Positions 5,786 to 19,757 of a stretch of DNA of 64,000 bases are shown here, piece after piece. Location: NCBI RefSeq assembly GCF_002025255.2, contig NZ_CP054587.1:496001-560000 (forward strand), in the 5' to 3' direction. Positions within the stretch are counted from its first letter, which is position 1, and every line of letters begins with the position of its first letter. A program made the position numbers and the translations under genes. Below the pieces are notes generated by a model. It was given only the letters and a program-made list of their open reading frames with translations. It did no database searches and was not told the origin of the DNA. The stretch comes from Halolamina sp. CBA1230 (GTDB lineage Archaea; Halobacteriota; Halobacteria; Halobacteriales; Haloferacaceae).

Positions 5786-8700
5786 ATGATAGAAAGGAAA
5801 CAGATGCGGGCCGTCGTCCTGGCAGTTCTGATGGTCGGGTCCGTCCTCACGGTCGGGGTGGGTAGCGTCGCGGCACAGCCATCACTCGCCGAGAACCAGG
5901 CGCCGTCGCTCGACGGGAACGGCGCGGTGCAGGAACTCGAACCGAACACCGCGGTGACGAACACGGAGCCCACGGCAGCGTCCATCGAACGGGACGACGC
6001 CGAAACGGCGAACGTCGCGAAGGAGCTCCGAAGGGCGGACGGCGAGCAGGTGCTCCTGCTGAGCGTGGAGCGGAACCTCGACCGTGACGCCGCCAGCTTC
6101 GCGTCCGTGGACGCCGACACGCTCCGGGCCGACTCGCGAGCGACGCTCCGCCCCGTCGCGGAGCAACTCACCGAGTTCGAGCACGTCGACATCCGGAACC
6201 AGTTCTGGGCAGGGAACGTGCTCTCGGTGGAAGTCGACCTCGACGAACACGACGTCGACCGGCTCGCAGCCATCGACGGCGTGACCGCCGTCGCGCCGAA
6301 CGCCGACGCCGTCCACCCGGCACCGCCGGAAGACGACACGACGATGATGGCGAGCACCGAGAGCAGCGGCGGCGACGACTACACGTACGGGCTCGAGCAG
6401 ATCGACGTGCCTGGGTTCGAGGAGCGCTACGGCGACCGTGGCGGGAACGCGACCGTCGCCGTCATCGACGACGGGATCAGCAACCCCGAGGCGGGTCACC
6501 CCGACCTCACGTTCGCGACCGAGGCGGTCGCGGTCAACGGCAGCGTCACCACGGGGACGCTCGGCAGTGCGGGCTCCCACGGTGAACACGTCGCCGGGAC
6601 GGCAGCCGGTGCCGCCGAGCCCGCGGGTGACGTCCCCCGATACGGCGTCGCTCCCGACTCCTCGCTCGTCATGATCAACGCCTTCGAAGGCGGTGCGACC
6701 GCCGAGGACATCCTCGCGTCGGTCCAGTACTCGGCGGAGCAGGACGTCGACGTGGCGACCATGAGCCTCGGCTTCGAGTCGACCACCGGGAACTCGGTGC
6801 TCATGACTGCGATGGAGGAGACGATCCAGGACGCCAACGCGGCGGGCACGCTGGTCGTCGGCTCGGCCGGGAACGCCGGCGCCGGCGACGACGGCGGGCC
6901 GACCACTTCGCCCGGCGCCGAGTTCTCCAGTTTCTCCGTCGGTGCCTCCAACGCGCAGGGTACTATCGCACCCTTCTCCAGCGGCGCCGTGATCAGCCCG
7001 TTCGCCGCGGAGTACGTGAGTGCTAACGGGAGCTACCCCGCGAACTACCCGCGTGAGTACGTCAAGCCCGACGTTGCCGCTCCCGGCGCCGACGTACTGA
7101 GCGCCGGGCCGCTCGGCACCGTCGTCGCGGACGACGCCGCGACGTACTCGACGAGTGGCGGGACGTCGATGGCCGCCCCGCACGTCGCGGGTGCGGCCGC
7201 GTTGATCCAGTCCGCGACCGAGGAGGAGCTGGCGCCGAAGACGATCCAGGCAGCGCTCGTGGAGACGGCCGCCAAGCCGGACAACGAGTTCGCCGAACGG
7301 CACGGGCGGGACATCCGCTACGGCGCCGGGGTCATCAACGTCACTGCGGCCACCGCGGCCGTGAAGTCGGGGACGATGGGGATCGAAGGCACGGTCACGG
7401 ACACCGACGGCGACCCGATCCCGGGCGCCGCGGTGACCAGCGAGGGCGACGCGCTCACGAGCGCGAACGTCTCGGGTGACTACACGCTCCGGACCACTGA
7501 CCAGTCGACCGAGGTCACGGCCGACGCGTTCGGTTACGAGGCGTCGAGCCAGGACGTCGATGACGGGAGCGCCCAGTTCACGCTGGACGACGCACTTGCC
7601 GTCGACCTGATCGAGGAGCAGAGCGAATACGCGGAGTTCGACGGACAGGTCGACGTGACAGTCGACGTGCGCAACCTCGACAACGTCACGGTCGAGCCCA
7701 CCCAGGCGACCGACGTCGACACGGGGAACCTGACGCTGCGGGTCGCCGGGGAGGAAGCCAGCTTCGGCGAGCCGGTCGAACTCGACGGGTACGACGGCCT
7801 CGTGAACGTCACCGTCGATATCGACGGGAACGCCAGCGTCGAGGAGAACGACACGATCGGGCTCGAACACACGTTCCAGGGGCTTGGCGAGAGCACGACC
7901 GTCGAATCCGGCCCGACGACGCTGACCGAGGAGCTCGATCCCGCGTTCTTCGAACTGGACGGGCTCACGGCTCCGGAGACGCTCGCACCCGGCGAGTCCC
8001 TCGACATGACCGTCGAGGTCACGAACACCGGACAGGTGGCGGACAGCAAGCTGATCCAGACGTTCGTGGACGGGCCCAGCGGCGAGGCAGCGGTGCCGCC
8101 CGAGGAGCTCAGCCTCGAACCGGGCGAGACCACGACGTACGAACTGTCGGCCAACGGGATCGGCAGCCTCTACGACGCCGGGAGCGTGCTCGACGTCGGC
8201 TTCCGGACTGCCGACGGTGAAGGGTATTTCGGCGATCTCACCGGGATCAACGACGAGATCTCCGCCGAACTCGCGCTCCAGGCACAGGGCGCGCAGTTCA
8301 GCGTGACGAGCCTCGAAGCGCCGACCAAAGCCGGCGCTGGCGAAGAGATACAGGTCAACGCGACCGTCGAGAACGTCGGCAGCGAGGCCGACCAGCAGAA
8401 CGTGGCGTTCCGGTTCGGGGCGGAGACGCTCGCGACCGAGACGGTCGAACTCGAGGCGTTCGGCCTGAGCGCTTCCGACAACGTCGTGAACCTCTCGTTC
8501 ACCGTGTCGGTGCCCGAGGAGCCCGACATTTACGAACACGGCGTGTACACCGACGACGACAGCGCGACCGGCGCGATCGCCGTCGACGAGTCGTACACCA
8601 ACGTGACCGTCGTCGAATCCGACGGGATATACGAACCTGGACAGGGCGAGCGGACGCTCTCGGTGTTCGAGGAGCATCTCGCGCCGCGGTACGCCACCGA

Positions 8701-11700
8701 GGTGGTCGAGGTGCAGTCGGTCGACGACGAGACCATCGCGTCGACCGACGTGTTCGTGTTCCACGACTTCGGCACCTCGCTCAGCGACGAGGCGATCGCG
8801 GACCTGATCACCACCGTCGAGAACGACTCGACGACCCGGGCGGTGTACCTCGAACAGGCGATCGCGAGCAACGCGATCTCCGACCGCTCGCGGGTGACCG
8901 GCGACCCCGACGAGTCGCCGTTGAACTCCCAGACCGGCGCGCCGCCGGTCGAGTTCGAGATCGAGGCCGACCACCCGATCTTCGAGGGCGTCGGCGAGCC
9001 GGGCGAGACGGTCACCATCCACGACGGTCCGAACGCCTACATGTCGTGGTTCGAGGGGCCAGACGGTGAGACCCTCGCGCGGGCGGACGACGCCGCGGGC
9101 ACCGACGCGGGCGGGCCGAGCGTCGCAGTCGACCCCGAGACGGGGTCGGTGCTGCTGGCCTCGATCGCGCCGTTCGAGTTCCCGCTGGCCGGCCTCTCGC
9201 TCTCGCCGGACGCGTTCACCGACGACGCGGGCCGACTGCTCGCGAACTCGGTGGCCGTCGCCGACGACGACACCGACAGGTCGGTCGCCGTCGACACCGA
9301 GTTCGTCGGGGCGGTCGATGACGCCTCGGACTCGGTGACGGTGACGGGCTCGGTCGGCGCGACCGACCAGCACGACGGTGAGGAGGTCACCGTCACCGTC
9401 GGCGGCGAGCCCGTAACCACCGCGACGGTCGACGGCTACGAGTTCACGGCCGAGTTCGATCCCACCGTGCTCGATCTGTCGGCCCAGTCCGACGCGGTCG
9501 TGGACGTGGCCGAACTCTCCATCAACGACACGGACACGGTCGACGTGGTCCACGAGACGCGGTCGCTCGAGAAGGGGTACAACCTCCTCTCGGTACCCCA
9601 GTCCGCAAACCTCTCCGCGGAGGGGGTCGGCGCCGTGAACGTCTGGAACGCGTCCGCCGGTAGCTACGAATCGGCCACCGGGTCCGAGTTCGACTCCCCG
9701 GCGAACCTCCATCAGGGGCTGTACGTCTCGGCGACCGACGACGACGCTCGCCTCGGGTTCACGTTCGGCGACGACGTGCCGACGGGCGGCACGGCCGACC
9801 TGACAGAGGGCTGGACGCTCGCGGGGTCGAACTTCGCGATCGACAGCACCGAGATGGGTGACACGCGGACGCTCCATGAGGATCTCGTCTCGGTCGACCC
9901 GTCCGGGCTGACAGTGTTCGGCTCCGGCTTCGACCAACAGTACGACGGCCAGTCGACGATCGGTGCCTACGACGCCTACTGGGTGCGCAACAGCGGGAAC
10001 ACGAGCCACGAACGCGCGATCGTCTCGCCGGCCTACGACGTCGCTGACCGCGAGGACGTGCTGGGGCTGAACGAGTCGGCGTTCGAGATCACCAGCGTCG
10101 AGACGTCCGTGCGCTCGACCGACGAGGTGTCGCTGGAGGACGACGTGCTCGGCAGCGACGAGGACGTGGTCGCGGTCGACGTGACGGTCACCAACGACGG
10201 CCGCCTCGACACGCAGTTCGTCGACCTACACGCCGCACAGGACGGCGAGTTCACGCTCGCCGAACGCAGTTCCGGTGTGACGCTCGACAGCAACGAAACC
10301 GAAACCGTCACGCTGTACTACGCGCTCGAACGGGACGACCCGCCCGCCGTCGACCTGCGGGCCACGACCGACGACGACGCCGCGGAAACCACCCTCGGCG
10401 TCGGCGGGGACGGGCTGACCGTCGAGGATCAGGCACTGACGCTCGACGACGAGTTCGTGGTCAGCAGCGTCGACTACAACGGCGAAGCGACCGTCGAGCT
10501 CGTCGCCGACGGCGAGGTGCTCGGAACCGAAACCGTCGACGACGGCGACGCGACCGACCTCCCGATCACGCTTTCGAACGCGACGACGGGGACGGTCGAG
10601 GTACGCTTGCTGGACGCCGACGGCGAGGAGCAGGCCAACGCGACCGCGACCGTCTCCGGCCCCAGCATCGAGATCGAGAACGGGGCGCCCGCACACGCGT
10701 TCCCCGATTCGGAGAGCGTCGACGTGCCGGCCAACGTGACCAACAACGCGTTGATCGAACAGACGGTCGACGTCGGGTTCGCGATGGGCGGCGAAACCGT
10801 CGAAAACGAGACGGCCACGATCGCCGGCCGGAGTACCGAACTGGCGGCGACGTTCGCGGCGAACGTCTCCGAACTCGACGTCGGTGACTCGGTCGAGCAC
10901 ACCGTCTCGGCCGCCGGAGCGAGCGATACGGCCACGCTGACGGTGACTGAGGCCGCGATCGAGTTCCGCGACCAGGGCTCCACCGACGGCACGGTGCTGG
11001 TCGAGAACGTCACCGCCGAGGCCGGGCAGTCCGTCGTCGTCACGAACGACGAGTACGAGATCGTCGACAGCGCGAACCTCACGGAGGACATCGTGGACGG
11101 CACGATGGAGTTCACGCTCGAGAGCCCCGGCGAGCACGTCGCGCACGTGGTCGCCGATACCGACGACGCGGCAGACGACGCCGGCCTCGTGAGCGATCAG
11201 GCGACCGTGTCCGCGACGAACGTGACCATCGAGAACACGAGCGTGAACGTCAGCGAGTCGTCGCTGCCGTACAGCGTCGAGGAACTGGACGTGGCGGGAG
11301 CAGGCGTCCTCGACAGTTTCGACGGCACGCCCGAGGGTGCGAACTACACGATCGAGATCCGGCAGGACGGGGCGACCATCGGCGAGTCCGACACGCTGAA
11401 CGGCGAGGAGATGGACGTGACGGTCCCGCTCGACGAGCCGATCACCGCCGACTCGGTCGGTACGACCACCGCTGCGGTCGAGGCGGTACTGGTCGACGAG
11501 TCGGGGACGGCGATCCCCATCGCGCGGAACGGGACGTTCACCACCGTCTCGGACAACGCCACGGTGACGATCACCGCGGGCGAGGCCGAGGCGAACGTCG
11601 TGCTGCCGGATCAGACGATCGACGCGAACGGCGGCAGTGACGCCGTCCGGGTCGAGAACGTCACCGGGACTGAGGGCCAGTACGTGGTCCTCACGGACGC

Positions 11701-12169
11701 CGACCTGAACGTCGTCGGCACGCACGCACTCGAGGAGCGCGTCGTCGACGAGACGCTCGTCGTCGACCTGAACGAGAGCGCCGAACCGGGCGAGTACCGC
11801 GCCCACCTCACGAGCGACGTGGGGCTGCTCGCCGGCGACGCGCTGGTGACCGACGCCGGCGAACTGTCCGAGCCGGCGAACTTCGACGTCGGGATCGACT
11901 CAGTCAACGACTCGGTGACTGCCGGCGAGAACGTCAGCGTCACCTACACCGTCGAGAACACCGGCGGCGTCGAGGGGGCACAGACCGTCAGCGCCTCGGT
12001 GAACGGCACGGAGGTGGCCACCGACGACGTGACGCTCGCGGCCGGCGCGAATCAGACGCTCAGCGTGACGTACGTGACCGACGGCGACGACACGCCGGCG
12101 GTCGAAGTCGAAGTGGAGAGCGAGAACGACAGCGCGACCGCGACGGTCGAAGTGATGCCGGCAAGCTAA
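5786..12169 (+). CDS. Giant secreted subtilisin-like protease with CARDB-type repeats
   Basis: 2127 residues. A signal peptide (about 1-31, ending VGSVAAQ) is followed by an inhibitor_I9-like propeptide (~75-180) and an S8 domain with Asp228, His265, oxyanion Asn363 and Ser461 (GGTSMAAPHVAG). Then come a carboxypeptidase-regulatory-like domain (~528-605), CARDB/Ig-like repeats (~610-950), a segment resembling a glutamine-amidotransferase/ThuA fold (~950-1165), a further Ig domain, a YNLLSVPQ...AYWVR domain (~1264-1415) and more Ig/CARDB repeats to the end. Many N-x-S/T sequons suggest glycosylation. There is no PGF-CTERM or C-terminal membrane helix, so it is probably released or held non-covalently. 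A start at Met7 is also possible. Confidence 0.92.
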   Translation: MIERKQMRAVVLAVLMVGSVLTVGVGSVAAQPSLAENQAPSLDGNGAVQELEPNTAVTNTEPTAASIERDDAETANVAKELRRADGEQVLLLSVERNLDRDAASFASVDADTLRADSRATLRPVAEQLTEFEHVDIRNQFWAGNVLSVEVDLDEHDVDRLAAIDGVTAVAPNADAVHPAPPEDDTTMMASTESSGGDDYTYGLEQIDVPGFEERYGDRGGNATVAVIDDGISNPEAGHPDLTFATEAVAVNGSVTTGTLGSAGSHGEHVAGTAAGAAEPAGDVPRYGVAPDSSLVMINAFEGGATAEDILASVQYSAEQDVDVATMSLGFESTTGNSVLMTAMEETIQDANAAGTLVVGSAGNAGAGDDGGPTTSPGAEFSSFSVGASNAQGTIAPFSSGAVISPFAAEYVSANGSYPANYPREYVKPDVAAPGADVLSAGPLGTVVADDAATYSTSGGTSMAAPHVAGAAALIQSATEEELAPKTIQAALVETAAKPDNEFAERHGRDIRYGAGVINVTAATAAVKSGTMGIEGTVTDTDGDPIPGAAVTSEGDALTSANVSGDYTLRTTDQSTEVTADAFGYEASSQDVDDGSAQFTLDDALAVDLIEEQSEYAEFDGQVDVTVDVRNLDNVTVEPTQATDVDTGNLTLRVAGEEASFGEPVELDGYDGLVNVTVDIDGNASVEENDTIGLEHTFQGLGESTTVESGPTTLTEELDPAFFELDGLTAPETLAPGESLDMTVEVTNTGQVADSKLIQTFVDGPSGEAAVPPEELSLEPGETTTYELSANGIGSLYDAGSVLDVGFRTADGEGYFGDLTGINDEISAELALQAQGAQFSVTSLEAPTKAGAGEEIQVNATVENVGSEADQQNVAFRFGAETLATETVELEAFGLSASDNVVNLSFTVSVPEEPDIYEHGVYTDDDSATGAIAVDESYTNVTVVESDGIYEPGQGERTLSVFEEHLAPRYATEVVEVQSVDDETIASTDVFVFHDFGTSLSDEAIADLITTVENDSTTRAVYLEQAIASNAISDRSRVTGDPDESPLNSQTGAPPVEFEIEADHPIFEGVGEPGETVTIHDGPNAYMSWFEGPDGETLARADDAAGTDAGGPSVAVDPETGSVLLASIAPFEFPLAGLSLSPDAFTDDAGRLLANSVAVADDDTDRSVAVDTEFVGAVDDASDSVTVTGSVGATDQHDGEEVTVTVGGEPVTTATVDGYEFTAEFDPTVLDLSAQSDAVVDVAELSINDTDTVDVVHETRSLEKGYNLLSVPQSANLSAEGVGAVNVWNASAGSYESATGSEFDSPANLHQGLYVSATDDDARLGFTFGDDVPTGGTADLTEGWTLAGSNFAIDSTEMGDTRTLHEDLVSVDPSGLTVFGSGFDQQYDGQSTIGAYDAYWVRNSGNTSHERAIVSPAYDVADREDVLGLNESAFEITSVETSVRSTDEVSLEDDVLGSDEDVVAVDVTVTNDGRLDTQFVDLHAAQDGEFTLAERSSGVTLDSNETETVTLYYALERDDPPAVDLRATTDDDAAETTLGVGGDGLTVEDQALTLDDEFVVSSVDYNGEATVELVADGEVLGTETVDDGDATDLPITLSNATTGTVEVRLLDADGEEQANATATVSGPSIEIENGAPAHAFPDSESVDVPANVTNNALIEQTVDVGFAMGGETVENETATIAGRSTELAATFAANVSELDVGDSVEHTVSAAGASDTATLTVTEAAIEFRDQGSTDGTVLVENVTAEAGQSVVVTNDEYEIVDSANLTEDIVDGTMEFTLESPGEHVAHVVADTDDAADDAGLVSDQATVSATNVTIENTSVNVSESSLPYSVEELDVAGAGVLDSFDGTPEGANYTIEIRQDGATIGESDTLNGEEMDVTVPLDEPITADSVGTTTAAVEAVLVDESGTAIPIARNGTFTTVSDNATVTITAGEAEANVVLPDQTIDANGGSDAVRVENVTGTEGQYVVLTDADLNVVGTHALEERVVDETLVVDLNESAEPGEYRAHLTSDVGLLAGDALVTDAGELSEPANFDVGIDSVNDSVTAGENVSVTYTVENTGGVEGAQTVSASVNGTEVATDDVTLAAGANQTLSVTYVTDGDDTPAVEVEVESENDSATATVEVMPAS

Positions 12170-13279: not shown

Positions 13280-15130
13280 TCAGTCGTCGCTCGGCTCCGG
13301 CGCCGTACCGCTGCCGCCACGGACGTTGCTGATGTTCTCGTACCCGATGCGCACCAGCGAGAGCGCGAGGTACAGCAGCACGAGTGCCAGCACGACCCGG
13401 ACCACAACCGAGATCTGTGTGCCCAGACCGGTCGCGCCGCCCATGATCAGCTGATCGTACAGCTGCTCTTTGAACGCGATCCAGGAGATACCGAGCACCG
13501 TGATGGTCACCATCAACACCATCGGCACGCCGGTGCTGATGAGCTGTTTGGAGTCGTCCCAGTTGGCGAGCCAGACCGTCGCGGTCAGCAGCGCGAGCGC
13601 GGCGAGGAGCTGGTTCGCACCGCCGAACAGCGTCCACAGCGTCGCCCACTCGCCCGAGATGACCAGCGCGTACGCGATGATGACCTGGACCAGCGGGTTG
13701 GTGTACCGACCGCGGGCGAACGAACCGATGCCGCCCGAAAGCCCGGTTTCGGTACCGCTGCCGGGTGCACCCAGGATCTCCTCCATCATGTATCGGCCGA
13801 GACGGGCGGCCGTGTCGGTGGACGTGAGCAGGAAGCTCACGAGCACGAGCGCCATGAACGGCGCACCGTACTGGGCGGGGATGCCCAGACTCGTGAGGAT
13901 GGTGCCGCCACCTGCGGCGAAGTTCGGCAGCGCGCCGCCGATGCCGCCAGCCGCCGCGTCGGAGGCGACGCCGGCGATAGCGAGCGTCGACAGCGCCACT
14001 GCGGCGAGCAGCCCCTCACCGAGCATGCCACCGTAGCCGATGAGTCTGGCGTCGCTCTCCTTGTTCAGCTGTTTCGCAGTGGTCCCGGAGGACACCAGCG
14101 AGTGGAACCCGCTGATCGTCCCACACGCGATGGTCACGAACAGCATCGGGAACAGTGGGAACGGTGCGACGCTGTCCACCCCGAGGAACCCGACGAACGG
14201 TTCGATGCTGTCGGACACGACGAGCGGTTCGCTCGACGTGCCGAGCAGCGTGCCGACGATGATCGCCAGCAGTGCGCCGCCGACACCTGCGTACAGCAGG
14301 AACGACGACAGGTAGTCACGCGGCTGGAGCAGCGTCCACACGGGGAGCGCGCTCGCGACCGCCGCGTACACGAGGATCACTGGGACCCACGCCGCCGTGT
14401 TGCCGCCGAGCGCCCCGGCGCCGGGGACCCACGAGCCAGTGCCGTTGAACAGCACGAACGTTCCAGCAGTGTGAGAGCCTTCAGCCAGCTCGAACAGCGC
14501 GAACGGGTACTGGATACCGATCCAGACGCCCGCGAACACGCCCGCGACGAACACGATCGTCCCGGGGATGAACGGACCGTCGAGCTGGTAGAGGTAGACG
14601 CCGAACACGATCGCCAGCGCGATGTACACGAAGCTCGCGGTCGCCGCCGACGGGTACGCGTTCAGCACGATACCCACGACCAGCGCGAACACCGCGACGA
14701 CGAGGATGATCGTGAGGAACGCGAACCACAGCAGCAGGTTCTTCCCGCGTTCACCCACGTACTCGCCGATGATGTAGCCGATCGACTTCCCCTCGTGTCG
14801 CATCGAGCCCGACAGCGAGACGAAGTCGTGGACCGCCCCCATCAGGGGGTTACCGATGGCGACCCACGCGAGTGCGGGCACCCAGCCCCAGATGGCGCCG
14901 GCCGTGATCGGGCCGACAATCGGCGCGCCGCCCGCGATGCTCGAGAAGTGGTGCCCGAGCAGCACTGGTTTCTTCGACGGAACGTACTCCTGCCCGTCCT
15001 CGTACTTGTGGGCTGGCGTCTCCCGTGAGTCGTCGAGGCCGACGAACTGTGAGAGATACCGCGAGTACCCGACGTACCCGACGGAGAACGTGATCAACAC
15101 TGCCGCCACGATCCAGATTACCTGAGTCAT
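13280..15130 (-). CDS. cstA: Carbon starvation protein CstA (peptide/pyruvate permease)
   Basis: 616-residue polytopic membrane protein with the CstA hallmark GHHFSSIAGGAPIVGP near residue 60 and about 15 hydrophobic helices; length matches the family. CstA proteins import peptides or pyruvate during carbon starvation. The second half has FHSLVSSGTTAKQLNKESDA, conserved in the family. No CstA-type histidine-kinase partner is adjacent. Upstream, CTTAAG near 15171-15176 (minus strand) is the TATA candidate, leaving a short leader. Confidence 0.95.
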   Translation of the reverse strand: MTQVIWIVAAVLITFSVGYVGYSRYLSQFVGLDDSRETPAHKYEDGQEYVPSKKPVLLGHHFSSIAGGAPIVGPITAGAIWGWVPALAWVAIGNPLMGAVHDFVSLSGSMRHEGKSIGYIIGEYVGERGKNLLLWFAFLTIILVVAVFALVVGIVLNAYPSAATASFVYIALAIVFGVYLYQLDGPFIPGTIVFVAGVFAGVWIGIQYPFALFELAEGSHTAGTFVLFNGTGSWVPGAGALGGNTAAWVPVILVYAAVASALPVWTLLQPRDYLSSFLLYAGVGGALLAIIVGTLLGTSSEPLVVSDSIEPFVGFLGVDSVAPFPLFPMLFVTIACGTISGFHSLVSSGTTAKQLNKESDARLIGYGGMLGEGLLAAVALSTLAIAGVASDAAAGGIGGALPNFAAGGGTILTSLGIPAQYGAPFMALVLVSFLLTSTDTAARLGRYMMEEILGAPGSGTETGLSGGIGSFARGRYTNPLVQVIIAYALVISGEWATLWTLFGGANQLLAALALLTATVWLANWDDSKQLISTGVPMVLMVTITVLGISWIAFKEQLYDQLIMGGATGLGTQISVVVRVVLALVLLYLALSLVRIGYENISNVRGGSGTAPEPSDD

Positions 15131-15240
15131 TGTAACGTACCTTCATGATACAGATTGTCGTGACCACTTAAGAGTTGACTAATAGTTCTAGTACGTTCGC
15201 CCACGAATCGAAGCACGCTACGATGGTTTCGACCCCTCGA

Positions 15241-16215
15241 TCAGACGAACGATGGCTCCTCGACGCCGACCGAAACGTCGAGTTCGGCGGCCACGTCGGC
15301 GAGGAGGTCACCCCGAACCTCCCGGGTTCGGGTCTCGATCGTCGCGAGCAACGGGGGGTCGAGCGACTCCCGCACCTGATCGAGTCGGTCCGTCTCGGTC
15401 TCGATCCGGTCGCGGAGGTAGCGCGCGCCGCGGCCGTTCTCGTCGTCGTCCGGCGGCGGGGTGAGCTTGTTCGCGATCAGCCCGGAGACGCCCAGCCCCT
15501 CGGCGTCCATGTCGTCGATGGCGCGGGCGGTCTCGTTGACCGAGAGCTGGTCGGGGTTGAGCACGAGGAAGAAGGCGGCGTCCTCCCGCAACGCGCCGCC
15601 GGCGAACTCGAAGAACTCCTTGCGCTCCTGGAGGCGTTCGAGCACGGGGTCACCCTCCATCACGCGCCGCGGCTCGTTGTTGCCGATCGCGGCCTTCTCG
15701 AACAGGTCGATGCTCTGGCGGCGCTTGTGCATCAGGCGGTCGACCCAGTCCTCGAGGAACTCCGGCAGTCCCAGCAGGCGCAGCGTCGAGCCCGTGGGGG
15801 CGGTGTCGAACACCACGCGGTCGTACGGGTCGCTCTCCCGCATCACCTCGACGAACCGGTCGAACAGCGCCGACTCGTAGGCGCCCGGCGTCTGGTGGGC
15901 CATCTCCAGCTGCTTGTTGATCTCGTTGACCATCGACGCCGACACCTGATCCGAGAGCCGGTTCCGGATCTCGTCGAGGTGGGCGGTCACCTCCTCGTCG
16001 GGGTCGATCTCCAGCGCGTCGAGCCCGTCGATACCGTCGACCGGTTCGGGGGCGTCGCCGAACTGCTGGTCGAACACGTCCGAGACGGAGTGGGCCGGGT
16101 CGGTCGAGACCACGAGCGTGTCCACGCCCGCGTCCGCACACTTCCGTGCGTACGCACACGAGACAGTGGTCTTACCGACGCCGCCCTTCCCGCCGAAGAA
16201 GACGAACGGCTCCAT
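15241..16215 (-). CDS. ArsA/Get3-type ATPase
   Basis: 324 residues. Deviant Walker A GGKGGVGKTT (residues ~8-17), switch I DPAHSVSDVF, switch II DTAPTGSTLRLL. Single-domain archaeal ArsA homologues of this size are closer in layout to Get3 (tail-anchored membrane protein targeting) than to the two-domain arsenite pump ATPase, and there is no arsB or arsD nearby. It lacks the C-x2-C that zinc-dimerised eukaryotic Get3 uses, and shows no arsenite-site cysteines. The start is ATG 16215, whose A is shared with the stop of the upstream small gene, so translation is coupled. Confidence 0.9.
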   Translation of the reverse strand: MEPFVFFGGKGGVGKTTVSCAYARKCADAGVDTLVVSTDPAHSVSDVFDQQFGDAPEPVDGIDGLDALEIDPDEEVTAHLDEIRNRLSDQVSASMVNEINKQLEMAHQTPGAYESALFDRFVEVMRESDPYDRVVFDTAPTGSTLRLLGLPEFLEDWVDRLMHKRRQSIDLFEKAAIGNNEPRRVMEGDPVLERLQERKEFFEFAGGALREDAAFFLVLNPDQLSVNETARAIDDMDAEGLGVSGLIANKLTPPPDDDENGRGARYLRDRIETETDRLDQVRESLDPPLLATIETRTREVRGDLLADVAAELDVSVGVEEPSFV

Positions 16216-16511
16216 CAGAAGTGGTACTGCTGGCCCTTGCGCTCGATCATCGTGTCCCGGTCCCAGAGTCGGCGCTCCCACGCCTCGAACTCCTCTTCGA
16301 GGTACGGGAGGATCTCGGCGGTGTAGTACGACACCGGCGATGGGATGCCGAACGCGTCGGGGAAGCAGGCAAGCAGGAACGCGTCCTCCAGGTCCTCGGC
16401 CTCCTTCTCGATCTTTTCGTAGGCGGGGTGGCTGATCATCCCGTGGTAGAGCCCCCTGAGCCACTCGTCGAGGGCGTCCAGATAGGCGTCGATCCGTTCG
16501 GAGAGATCCAT
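16215..16511 (-). CDS. Small helical partner of the ArsA/Get3 ATPase
   Basis: 98 residues, first gene of a two-gene operon; its stop and the ATPase start share one base. It is almost wholly helical (MDLSERIDAYLDALDEWLRG, then YEKIEKEAEDLEDAFLLACF, then YTAEILPYLEEEFEAWERRL). No known domain is evident. A TATA-like TTTTAC lies about 28 bases before the ATG at 16511. Tight coupling suggests a partner or adaptor of the ATPase, which is inference. Confidence 0.82.
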   Translation of the reverse strand: MDLSERIDAYLDALDEWLRGLYHGMISHPAYEKIEKEAEDLEDAFLLACFPDAFGIPSPVSYYTAEILPYLEEEFEAWERRLWDRDTMIERKGQQYHF

Positions 16512-16628
16512 GCTGTCCGGTGGTAGACGTTCGTGCGGTAAAAGCTGTCGTGGCCGCGGCCCGCGTGCCGCCGGCGTCGACGGACCGCTGCCGAGAGGTT
16601 GAAAGGCGAGTGGCACCCACCCACACGC

Positions 16629-17858
16629 ATGAGCGATCACATCCCGGTCACGGTGCTCTCGGGGAGTCTCGGCGCCGGGAAGACCACGCTACTGAACCAC
16701 CTACTCACGAACGCTGGCGACCGCGACATCGCCGTCCTGGTCAACGACATGGGCGACGTGAACGTCGACGCCGAACTCGTCGCGGAAGGATCCGACACGG
16801 ACGTCGCCGGCGGCGTCGAGGAGCTCTCGAACGGCTGTATCTGCTGTGAGCTGCAGGACGACCTCGAGACCGCCGTGGTTCGGCTCGCGCGGAACCGCGA
16901 GTTCGACCACCTGATCGTGGAGTCCTCGGGCATCTCCGAGCCCGCGCCGGTCGCGCGGCTGTTCACCACCGAGTCCGCCGCGGCCGCACGGTACCGCGTG
17001 AACGGACTGGTGACAGTCGTCGACTCCCGGCTGTTCGTGGACACGTTCGGCGGCGAGGGGACGCCCGAGCGCACCGCCGCCGAGGAGGACGACCGCCCGC
17101 TGTCGGATTTGCTGGTCGAACAGATCGAGGTGTCGAACGCGGTCGTGCTCAACAAGGCCGACCTCTGTACGGACGACGAACTCGACGAGGCCGAGGCGCT
17201 GGTGGCGGCGCTCCAGCCCGACGCCGACACGGTCCGCACCGCCTTCTCCGAGGTCGACCCTGAGTGGCTGCTCGACGTCGAGCGCTTCGACGAAGGCGAA
17301 GTGAACGACTTGCCGGGCTGGAAACGCGCGCTGGCGGACGAGGAGCACGAACACGACGGCGAGCACGACGACGGCCACGGCCACCGGCACCCGGACGAGG
17401 TGTACGGCGTCGCCTCGTTCACCTACAGACAGCGCCGGCCGTTCCACCCCGAGCGGATCGCCGCGGTGCTCCGTGATCTCCCCGACGGCGTCGTCCGCTC
17501 GAAAGGGACGATCTGGATCGCGGACAACGAACTCCGTCAGACGGTCGGGCAAGCGGGGTCGTCCGTGCGCGTGGAGGCGCGCGGGCCGTGGATCGCCTCC
17601 CTCCCCGAGGTCGAGCAGGATCTCTACCGCTCGAACCGACCGAGCCTCGAGTGGGACGAGGAGCACGGCGACCGGCGCACGGAGTACGTCGTGATCGGCA
17701 CGGAGTTCGACGAGGACGCGCTGCGGGACCGCCTCGACGACGCGCTCGTCACCGACGAGGAGTGGGAGGACGTGGACGCGCTGCCCGCTGGTCCGTTCCC
17801 GACGGAGAACCAGGACGAGACCGCGCTGCGTGAGCCGGCGCCGGCGACGGTGGAGTAA
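16629..17858 (+). CDS. CobW/COG0523 family GTPase metallochaperone
   Basis: 409 residues. Walker A GSLGAGKTTLL (~10-20), the metal motif GCICCEL (C-x-C-C, ~74-80), the guanine motif NKAD, a His/Asp-rich loop (HEHDGEHDDGHGHRH, ~240-255) and a CobW C-terminal domain. The C-x-C-C motif and His-rich loop point to a zinc-handling member (ZNG1/YciC type), not cobalamin synthesis; no cob gene is near. A small zinc-ribbon gene converges with it, nine bases away. ATG 16629 is supported by GTTGAAAG about 30 bases upstream. Confidence 0.92.
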   Translation: MSDHIPVTVLSGSLGAGKTTLLNHLLTNAGDRDIAVLVNDMGDVNVDAELVAEGSDTDVAGGVEELSNGCICCELQDDLETAVVRLARNREFDHLIVESSGISEPAPVARLFTTESAAAARYRVNGLVTVVDSRLFVDTFGGEGTPERTAAEEDDRPLSDLLVEQIEVSNAVVLNKADLCTDDELDEAEALVAALQPDADTVRTAFSEVDPEWLLDVERFDEGEVNDLPGWKRALADEEHEHDGEHDDGHGHRHPDEVYGVASFTYRQRRPFHPERIAAVLRDLPDGVVRSKGTIWIADNELRQTVGQAGSSVRVEARGPWIASLPEVEQDLYRSNRPSLEWDEEHGDRRTEYVVIGTEFDEDALRDRLDDALVTDEEWEDVDALPAGPFPTENQDETALREPAPATVE

Positions 17859-17867
17859 CGCGGCGGC

Positions 17868-18104
17868 TCAGCAGGCACAGCCGTCGGCGTAGGAACGCTC
17901 GAACCGCATCGACTCCCCGCAGTCGGGACACTGCGGCGTCCCCTCGCCGTCGTGGTCGAGTCCCTCAGCCGCCACGTCGGCGTCGCGGACCCGGACCCCG
18001 CAGTCGTCACACCAGTACGCCCCCTTCGACTCCGGTTCCGACTCGGTCTCCGACTCCTCGGTTCGCCCGGTGAGCGCGCTCTCGATCGTGCCAACAATAC
18101 CCAT
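17868..18104 (-). CDS. Small zinc-ribbon protein
   Basis: 78 residues. After a short N-terminal helix and acidic linker comes CDDC, then 26 residues later CPDC, and the extreme C-terminus is CAC. The four main cysteines form a classical zinc ribbon; the CAC tail could add ligands. It is not recognised beyond that. It is convergent with the CobW GTPase and could be a client, but this is only positional. Confidence 0.8.
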   Translation of the reverse strand: MGIVGTIESALTGRTEESETESEPESKGAYWCDDCGVRVRDADVAAEGLDHDGEGTPQCPDCGESMRFERSYADGCAC

Positions 18105-18181
18105 ACATGTGTTTTCCGACTCCACCCTCTTAGCTTCCACGGCGACCAATAGCTAAGTGTCCCCGCCCCGGGCTACCACGT

Positions 18182-19466: not shown

Positions 19467-19757
19467 ATGGTCGGACTCGGAAGCACCGCACAGAAGCTGC
19501 AGACCGTCGCGGAGAGGGCCGAGAAGGTGTACGAGCGGATGAACAAGCTCCGCGAGGAGGTCGAGGAGACACAACAGACCGTCGACGAGACCAAACAGCG
19601 CGTCGTCGCCGTCGAGGAGGAGTTGGCCGAGCAGCGCGCCGTGCTCGACGCGATCGCCGAGGAGCACGACGTCGACGCCGACGCCGTCGCTGCCGAGGCC
19701 CACATCGAGGAGGCCGAGGCCGACGAGGACGAAGGGACGACGAACGGCGACAACTGA
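19467..19757 (+). CDS. Coiled-coil protein (DUF5798-like)
   Basis: 96 residues. A heptad-rich helix runs from about residue 9 to 66 (KLREEVEETQQTVDETKQRV, then VVAVEEELAEQRAVLDAIAE), followed by a very acidic tail. It resembles the short haloarchaeal family DUF5798, of unknown role, probably an oligomer. No signal peptide. Confidence 0.78.
   Translation: MVGLGSTAQKLQTVAERAEKVYERMNKLREEVEETQQTVDETKQRVVAVEEELAEQRAVLDAIAEEHDVDADAVAAEAHIEEAEADEDEGTTNGDN

Follow-up and report, generated by a model that had tools for sequence, protein, structure and literature searches.

Organisation of the locus

The window considered here is the whole stretch of 64,000 nucleotides analysed from Halolamina sp. 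CBA1230 (contig NZ_CP054587.1, positions 496,001 to 560,000), and all window coordinates count from its first base. Genes for a small soluble protein, a single-domain ATPase of the ArsA/Get3 superfamily and a CstA transporter follow one another on the minus strand, with a gene for a COG0523 GTPase read away from them on the plus strand:

16215–16511, minus strand: small soluble protein of 98 aa, predicted to be helical, apparently a divergent cory-CC-star relative, in the CstX position (translation, profile, model)
15241–16215, minus strand: single-domain ATPase of the ArsA/Get3 superfamily, 324 aa, CstA-associated type (translation, profiles, alignment, tree, model)
15131–15240, minus strand: ATPase–CstA gap of 110 bases with an AT-rich stretch inside (read by eye)
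13280–15130, minus strand: CstA polytopic transporter, short form, 616 aa (PF02554)
16512–16628, no strand assigned: divergent intergenic region of 117 bases between the small gene and the GTPase gene (window sequence)
16629–17858, plus strand: COG0523 (CobW/ZigA-like) GTPase, conserved neighbour of the module, divergently transcribed (domain and profile matches)

The small gene runs from an ATG at 16511 to a TGA stop at 16217–16215, and the ATPase gene opens on an ATG at 16215–16213 and stops at 15241, the two overlapping by one base (TGATG); the span of 15241–16511 and the overlap are exactly as the original prediction had them. The CstA gene immediately downstream was absent from that prediction. 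The gap that precedes it is 110 bases in the window, with a median of 176 and a range of 68 to 1659 over the 56 loci measured; the AT-rich stretch within it, picked out by eye, could be a CstA promoter. The shared promoter first proposed for the pair is putative, a promoter scan that covers sigma-70 types only having returned none.

Other frames of the surroundings include a 93-aa, Cys-rich, zinc-ribbon-like ORF that faces the GTPase (17868–18149, minus strand), with no curated family above cut-off and a match in 55 of the best 80 of 188 loci; a subtilase of 2127 aa that also carries CARDB and carboxypeptidase regulatory-like domains (5786–12169, plus strand); and a DUF5798 protein (19467–19757, plus strand).

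Conservation of the gene pair and its association with CstA

Scanning genome contigs with the small protein gave 188 confirmed loci, the best 80 of which were compared. A P-loop ATPase frame lies directly 3′ of the small gene in 80/80 of these (L064 being cut by the contig end), so the pairing is not a matter of chance; 68 of the 80 show the stop/ATG overlap string, the ATPase frame starting at the overlapping ATG in 57 of those 68. CstA falls inside the flanks of 75 of the same 80 loci. Where all four neighbours are full length (42 of the 80), mean pairwise identity is 84% for the small protein, which is thus the slowest changing of the four, 72% for the ATPase, 72% for CstA and 66% for the GTPase. 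Distance correlations across these 42 loci (ATPase–CstA 0.82, ATPase–GTPase 0.77, others 0.52 to 0.67) ignore kinship and are given no evidential weight.

Co-occurrence was assessed across a sample of 136 genomes of the class, with match thresholds of E<=1e-70 for the ATPase, E<=1e-20 for CstA and E<=1e-50 for the separate Get3 gene discussed below. Each gene of the pair is found in 104/136 genomes, an identical set, adjacent and on one strand in all 104; co-occurrence across haloarchaea, on which the original prediction turned, is therefore confirmed, the small gene being neither absent nor scattered. CstA is found in 105/136, comprising every genome with the pair plus one without it (G128), counts that come from related and hence non-independent genomes. 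On the strand of the pair, it lies downstream at no more than 2.5 kb in 84 of the 104 and at 2.7 kb in one more (G110), and upstream by up to 6.2 kb in 15; in the other four (G005, G098, G073 and G044) it is elsewhere in the genome, which leaves 100/104 with CstA within about 6 kb of the pair. Genomes with and without the module are mixed in at least six genera, and in the rows covered, which omit 12, 12 and 11 genomes without a match to the small protein, the ATPase and CstA respectively, all three genes are present or absent jointly. The trio thus co-occurs and stays clustered.

The solitary CstA (locus L162, G128:C1:1284000-1292000) is 58% identical to that of the window, its genome holding no match to the ATPase or the small protein. 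A second, broken copy of the module, made up of fragments of all three genes, is seen at G058:C1:259-3612. Haloferax volcanii, a genetic model, has relatives of the small family, of CstA and of ArsA.

Outside the class, seven genomes in a phylum sample of 294 match the small family, mostly weakly. The trio is together at 6/6 of the archaeal loci fetched from seven such matches, one of the CstA frames being truncated where its contig stops, and the gene order is the bacterial one in five and that of the window in the sixth (L156). On bacterial plasmids the order is CstA, small protein (cory-CC-star), ArsA in 4/4 records read of six matched, which represent three distinct loci, from Cytobacillus, Pseudochrobactrum and Paracoccus.

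The COG0523 GTPase is a further recurrent neighbour. It has a match in the flank of 77 of the best 80 of 188 loci, and 71 of the 72 near-full-length matches in that set are divergent from the small gene. By genome, 88/104 have it in divergent orientation no further than 4 kb from the small gene (median of 139 bases between matched stretches); the best copy is elsewhere in three (G057, G086 and G135), and 13 have no copy among the matches listed, four of these with only a lower-scoring one. In eight genomes that lack the module, all copies score lower, none above 449 bits. A COG0523 GTPase of another subgroup adjoins a CstA-family transporter in E. coli btsT-yjiX-yjiA and on a Rahnella plasmid.

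The ATPase belongs to a lineage separate from the Get3 of the same cell

The ATPase is intact; it matches PF02374 at 2.2e-66 in one stretch only, as a single-domain protein would, and scores 233.5 bits against TIGR00345 (GET3/ArsA/TRC40), above the cut-off of 135; because it passes this cut-off it is easily mistaken for archaeal Get3. Its Walker A motif GGKGGVGKT (the P-loop) and its switch residues are invariant in 30 aligned rows, and CxxC is absent from all 30 and from the ATPase of the window. The predicted model (pLDDT 80.5) has archaeal Get3/TRC40 as its best Foldseek match (3ug7); it aligns with 3zq6_D, also archaeal Get3/TRC40, at Z 26.9 and rmsd 3.3 over 288 residues, and with ArsA (1ihu) at Z 23.7 and rmsd 3.1 over 263. 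As far as such a model can tell, the fold fails to separate Get3 from ArsA, and ‘Get3-like’, the label originally given to the ATPase, is a fair one for the predicted fold.

As an identification with Get3 the same label does not stand. Elsewhere in the genome, at C1:2619053-2620165, lies another complete ArsA/Get3 gene, this one encoding CxxC; it has matches, not necessarily all orthologous, in 133/136 genomes at E<=1e-50, genomes lacking the module among them (for example G042 and G013). CxxC is present in 10/10 of the Get3-type sequences fetched. A tree of 29 rows, which has no outside root and carries a long-branch warning, splits the archaeal and bacterial module ATPases (14) from Get3 and its CxxC paralogues (15) at 100/100. 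The module ATPase therefore retains its catalytic motifs in a lineage separate from the Get3 of the cell. The diagnostic value of the cysteines is limited by their absence from Get3d and Arabidopsis Get3a as well, according to the available part of the source (PMC10248533).

Three genomes have no Get3 match at 1e-50, and in the two of them that carry the module (G044 and G073) the module ATPase may, judging from this pattern of matches, stand in for Get3. A third ArsA/Get3 paralogue group with CxxC occurs in some haloarchaea (L150–L154), on the Get3 side of the tree and distinct from the main Get3.

The small protein as a divergent cory-CC-star relative

The small protein had been described as unknown and helical. 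The first term holds in that no Pfam family is matched at gathering score, but not entirely, as NCBIfam NF041419 (cory-CC-star) is matched at 1e-14 with 54.2 bits, under the curated cut-off of 80; across the class, 224/292 genomes match this profile at 1e-3 and 0/292 at cut-off. The second agrees with the predicted model, which is helical at moderate confidence (mean pLDDT 71). The three bacterial cory-CC-star members, from plasmid loci with the same gene context, end in Arg-Cys-Cys (RCC), presumably the ‘CC’ of the family name, whereas the protein of the window ends in QYHF and none of the archaeal members examined has the Arg-Cys-Cys end. A core of the kind E-x-F-xLL..S..[LF]G[ILM]P.P......E[LI].P is shared by haloarchaeal members with those of the six other archaeal and three bacterial loci, and in the small protein of the window a conserved stretch lies around residues 53–70. 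By its profile match the small protein is a divergent relative of cory-CC-star.

No membrane span is predicted, no 19-residue window exceeding 1.6 in a Kyte-Doolittle hydropathy scan. The model, with the moderate confidence noted, has no Foldseek match in the PDB at E 0.001, and no Get4 or Get5 entry is among the 34 rows up to E 10; a PDB sequence search likewise gave no Get4/Get5 match, weak likeness being liable to escape both searches. The best E values of the protein and of its profile against PDB sequences are 0.92 and 0.054, corresponding to no known structure, and CstA and YbdD have 0 PDB matches at E 1 by sequence. The slow change of so small a soluble protein would fit a linker that contacts two partners.

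Two further ideas about this protein were considered and set aside. Homology to YbdD could be expected from the Cys-Cys ends of both bacterial families and their CstA neighbourhood, but there is no match to PF04328 (YbdD/YjiX, KCU-star) up to E 10, and hhalign comparison with YbdD is not significant (probability 12.5% and 0.2%). A metal site was suggested by invariant His23, His28, Cys49 and His97 (81/81 haloarchaeal rows), by the His and Cys at the C-termini of bacterial members and by the adjoining metallochaperone-type COG0523 GTPase; with the six further archaeal members added to the alignment, however, not one His or Cys is common to the whole family.

Short and long forms of CstA

The CstA of the window (PF02554, 1.7e-131) is 616 aa long and those of the three bacterial modules are 559–579 aa, whereas the long CstAs of eight YbdD-type loci, E. 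coli among them, run to 685–756 aa. Module CstAs start about 31 residues later than the long form, without its first hydrophobic segment, and E. coli CstA stretches 385–401, 428–444, 609–624 and 629–645 each occur in at most one of the four short sequences, a comparison of four with eight that are few and unevenly sampled. The module CstA is still polytopic, with 12 predicted spans. Of the 12 YbdD/YjiX-type neighbourhoods fetched, 10 are annotated, and no ArsA is named in any of the 10; for the plasmids among the 12 the flanks span 3 kb and the gene tables are incomplete, and one neighbourhood is without a listed CstA as well. For E. coli BtsT, which is related to CstA, the annotation is that of a pyruvate:H(+) symporter, and a transporter family of the CstA type can therefore run on an ion gradient.

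Relation to known systems

A module of this kind is already on record. Castillo and Saier described 26 CstA–ArsA associations in 2010, 24 of them with CstX; in their proposal CstA may be energised by ArsA, possibly by way of CstX (PMC2963123). Their cluster 17 gathers haloarchaeal ArsAs of Natronomonas, Haloquadratum, Halorubrum and Haloarcula, 9 of its 12 members are in SEED (which nine is unspecified) and all nine have CstA and CstX, and one ArsA of archaeal cluster 7 is also beside cstA and cstX. The window agrees with those operons in its three gene kinds, and in a single-domain ArsA of ∼330 aa and a small protein of ∼90 aa (PMC2963123, same portion): CstA is clustered with the pair, the single-domain ArsA lies within 300–340 aa and the small neighbour, at 98 aa, is near the size of CstX. 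The small protein is taken as a putative CstX from its position and size, and differs from the CstX of cluster 14, which is described with a single membrane span (PMC2963123). That text, so far as available, makes no mention of a COG0523 neighbour of CstA-CstX-ArsA (PMC2963123); the divergent COG0523 GTPase beside the pair in 88/104 genomes and the short CstA form are new here. In the literature covered, from which subscription journals are mostly absent, there is no test of ArsA–CstX–CstA coupling and no experiment on these proteins, CstX is linked with CstA by Castillo and Saier alone, and nothing was found on cory-CC-star by that name.

Also comparable are E. coli CstA–YbdD and BtsT–YjiX–YjiA, in which a CstA-family transporter again stands beside a small protein, with a COG0523 GTPase in the BtsT operon; they differ in their long CstA with the extra N-terminal membrane segment, in the absence of ArsA alongside and in a small protein, YbdD/YjiX, of no demonstrable homology to that of the window. 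Full pyruvate uptake in E. coli needs both CstA and YbdD, falling to 13% of wild-type without cstA and 20% without ybdD (PMC5847655). Because homology between the two small proteins lacks support, the ybdD genetics serve only as analogy. With Get3/TRC40 the window ATPase shares fold, P-loop and switch motifs, and differs in lacking CxxC, in lineage and in neighbours.

ArsA is thought to work with ArsB as an ATPase–transporter pair. The likeness of the module to this arsenite pump lies in an ArsA-fold ATPase joined to a membrane transporter and in the working mode proposed, on the evidence of the partial text (PMC2963123), and the differences in a single-domain ATPase, in CstA replacing ArsB and in scanned neighbours that include no ars genes.

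Proposed mechanism and alternative readings

CstA most likely has its fixed partners in the small protein and the ATPase, which would stand outside the Get3 pathway of membrane-protein targeting. That the three form one module, in which the ATPase energises or gates CstA through the small protein, is the leading explanation, held with somewhat better than even confidence; the association of the trio is supported, and the energising step is a proposal drawn from gene content and sequence. The small protein would bind both the ATPase and CstA at the cytoplasmic face, and ATP-driven opening and closing of the ATPase would drive or gate substrate uptake, much as for ArsA with ArsB, the substrate being, by analogy with E. 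coli CstA, perhaps pyruvate or peptides. Translation of the two overlapping genes is probably coupled through their shared base, which would hold the small protein and the ATPase at a fixed ratio. Counted against this explanation are the CstA genes located elsewhere in 4/104 genomes and solitary in G128, the 110-base gap between ATPase and CstA, which leaves their co-transcription putative, the sub-cut-off profile score and missing Cys-Cys end of the small protein, the closer fold match of the ATPase to archaeal Get3 than to ArsA, and the presence of the module in G044 and G073, two genomes with no Get3 match.

The main rival, carrying a clear minority of our confidence, is that CstA has in the ATPase and small protein its own insertion or assembly chaperone, which would shield this one multi-spanning client and not tail-anchored proteins in general. 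Strict co-occurrence suits a client as well as a partner, and the Get3/TRC40 fold is the best structural match of the ATPase. Against it, the 50 residues after Walker B contain less Met and more charge than those of the CxxC Get3 sequences: haloarchaeal module ATPases (n=30) average 1.7 Met and a GRAVY of -0.75, compared with 5.6 and -0.46 in the CxxC group (n=10), a crude proxy at best, and one in which the three bacterial module ATPases, with GRAVY of -0.34, are not more polar than Get3. CstA of the E. coli type, moreover, needs no adjoining ArsA (0/10 annotated neighbourhoods).

Less probable again, and on balance unlikely, is a purely regulatory pair, the ATPase sensing the energy state and switching CstA via the small protein without powering transport. 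The symporter annotation of BtsT and the still polytopic architecture of the module CstA would accommodate such a role; it is, however, a weaker form of the leading explanation, gating and energising being inseparable on present data.

The role first suggested for the pair, in which the ATPase would be a Get3 targeting factor served by a Get4/5-like adaptor, with tail-anchored proteins as clients, now appears very improbable. The TIGR00345 score and the fold match to archaeal Get3 speak for it, but a separate CxxC gene is matched in 133/136 genomes while the window ATPase is confined to 104 and follows CstA, and CxxC is lacking in 30/30 aligned members, a point tempered by the genuine Get3s that also lack it (PMC10248533, in the part available). 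The widespread CxxC gene and the link of the pair to CstA led to rejection of the Get3 pathway or adaptor reading, which fails because the ATPase differs both in lineage, on the tree, and in partner; the small protein tracks CstA, not Get3. Resistance to arsenite or another anion, which only the family name ArsA (PF02374) recommends, is hardly credible for a single-domain ATPase without CxxC whose scanned neighbours are not ars genes.

Implications

Assigning the ATPase to CstA and not to Get3 targeting avoids a wrong annotation and a wrong experiment. A broader generalisation, speculative and on balance unlikely, is that two kinds of CstA exist: a long, self-sufficient proton symporter accompanied by YbdD/YjiX, and a short form without the first membrane segment, which would need an ATP-switching ArsA and a soluble linker and would act as an ATP-driven or ATP-gated importer. 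The haloarchaeal COG0523 GTPase, tied to the module as YjiA is to the E. coli BtsT operon, would then be a second nucleotide switch, with ATPase and GTPase acting as a pair of switches on these transporters.

The coupling of ArsA to CstA proposed in 2010, as given in the accessible text (PMC2963123), is made testable by the near-perfect co-occurrence of the three genes and by the presence of relatives in Haloferax volcanii. Were the ATPase indeed to power or gate CstA, the module would be an example, apart from arsenic resistance, of an ArsA-class ATPase that harnesses a carrier.
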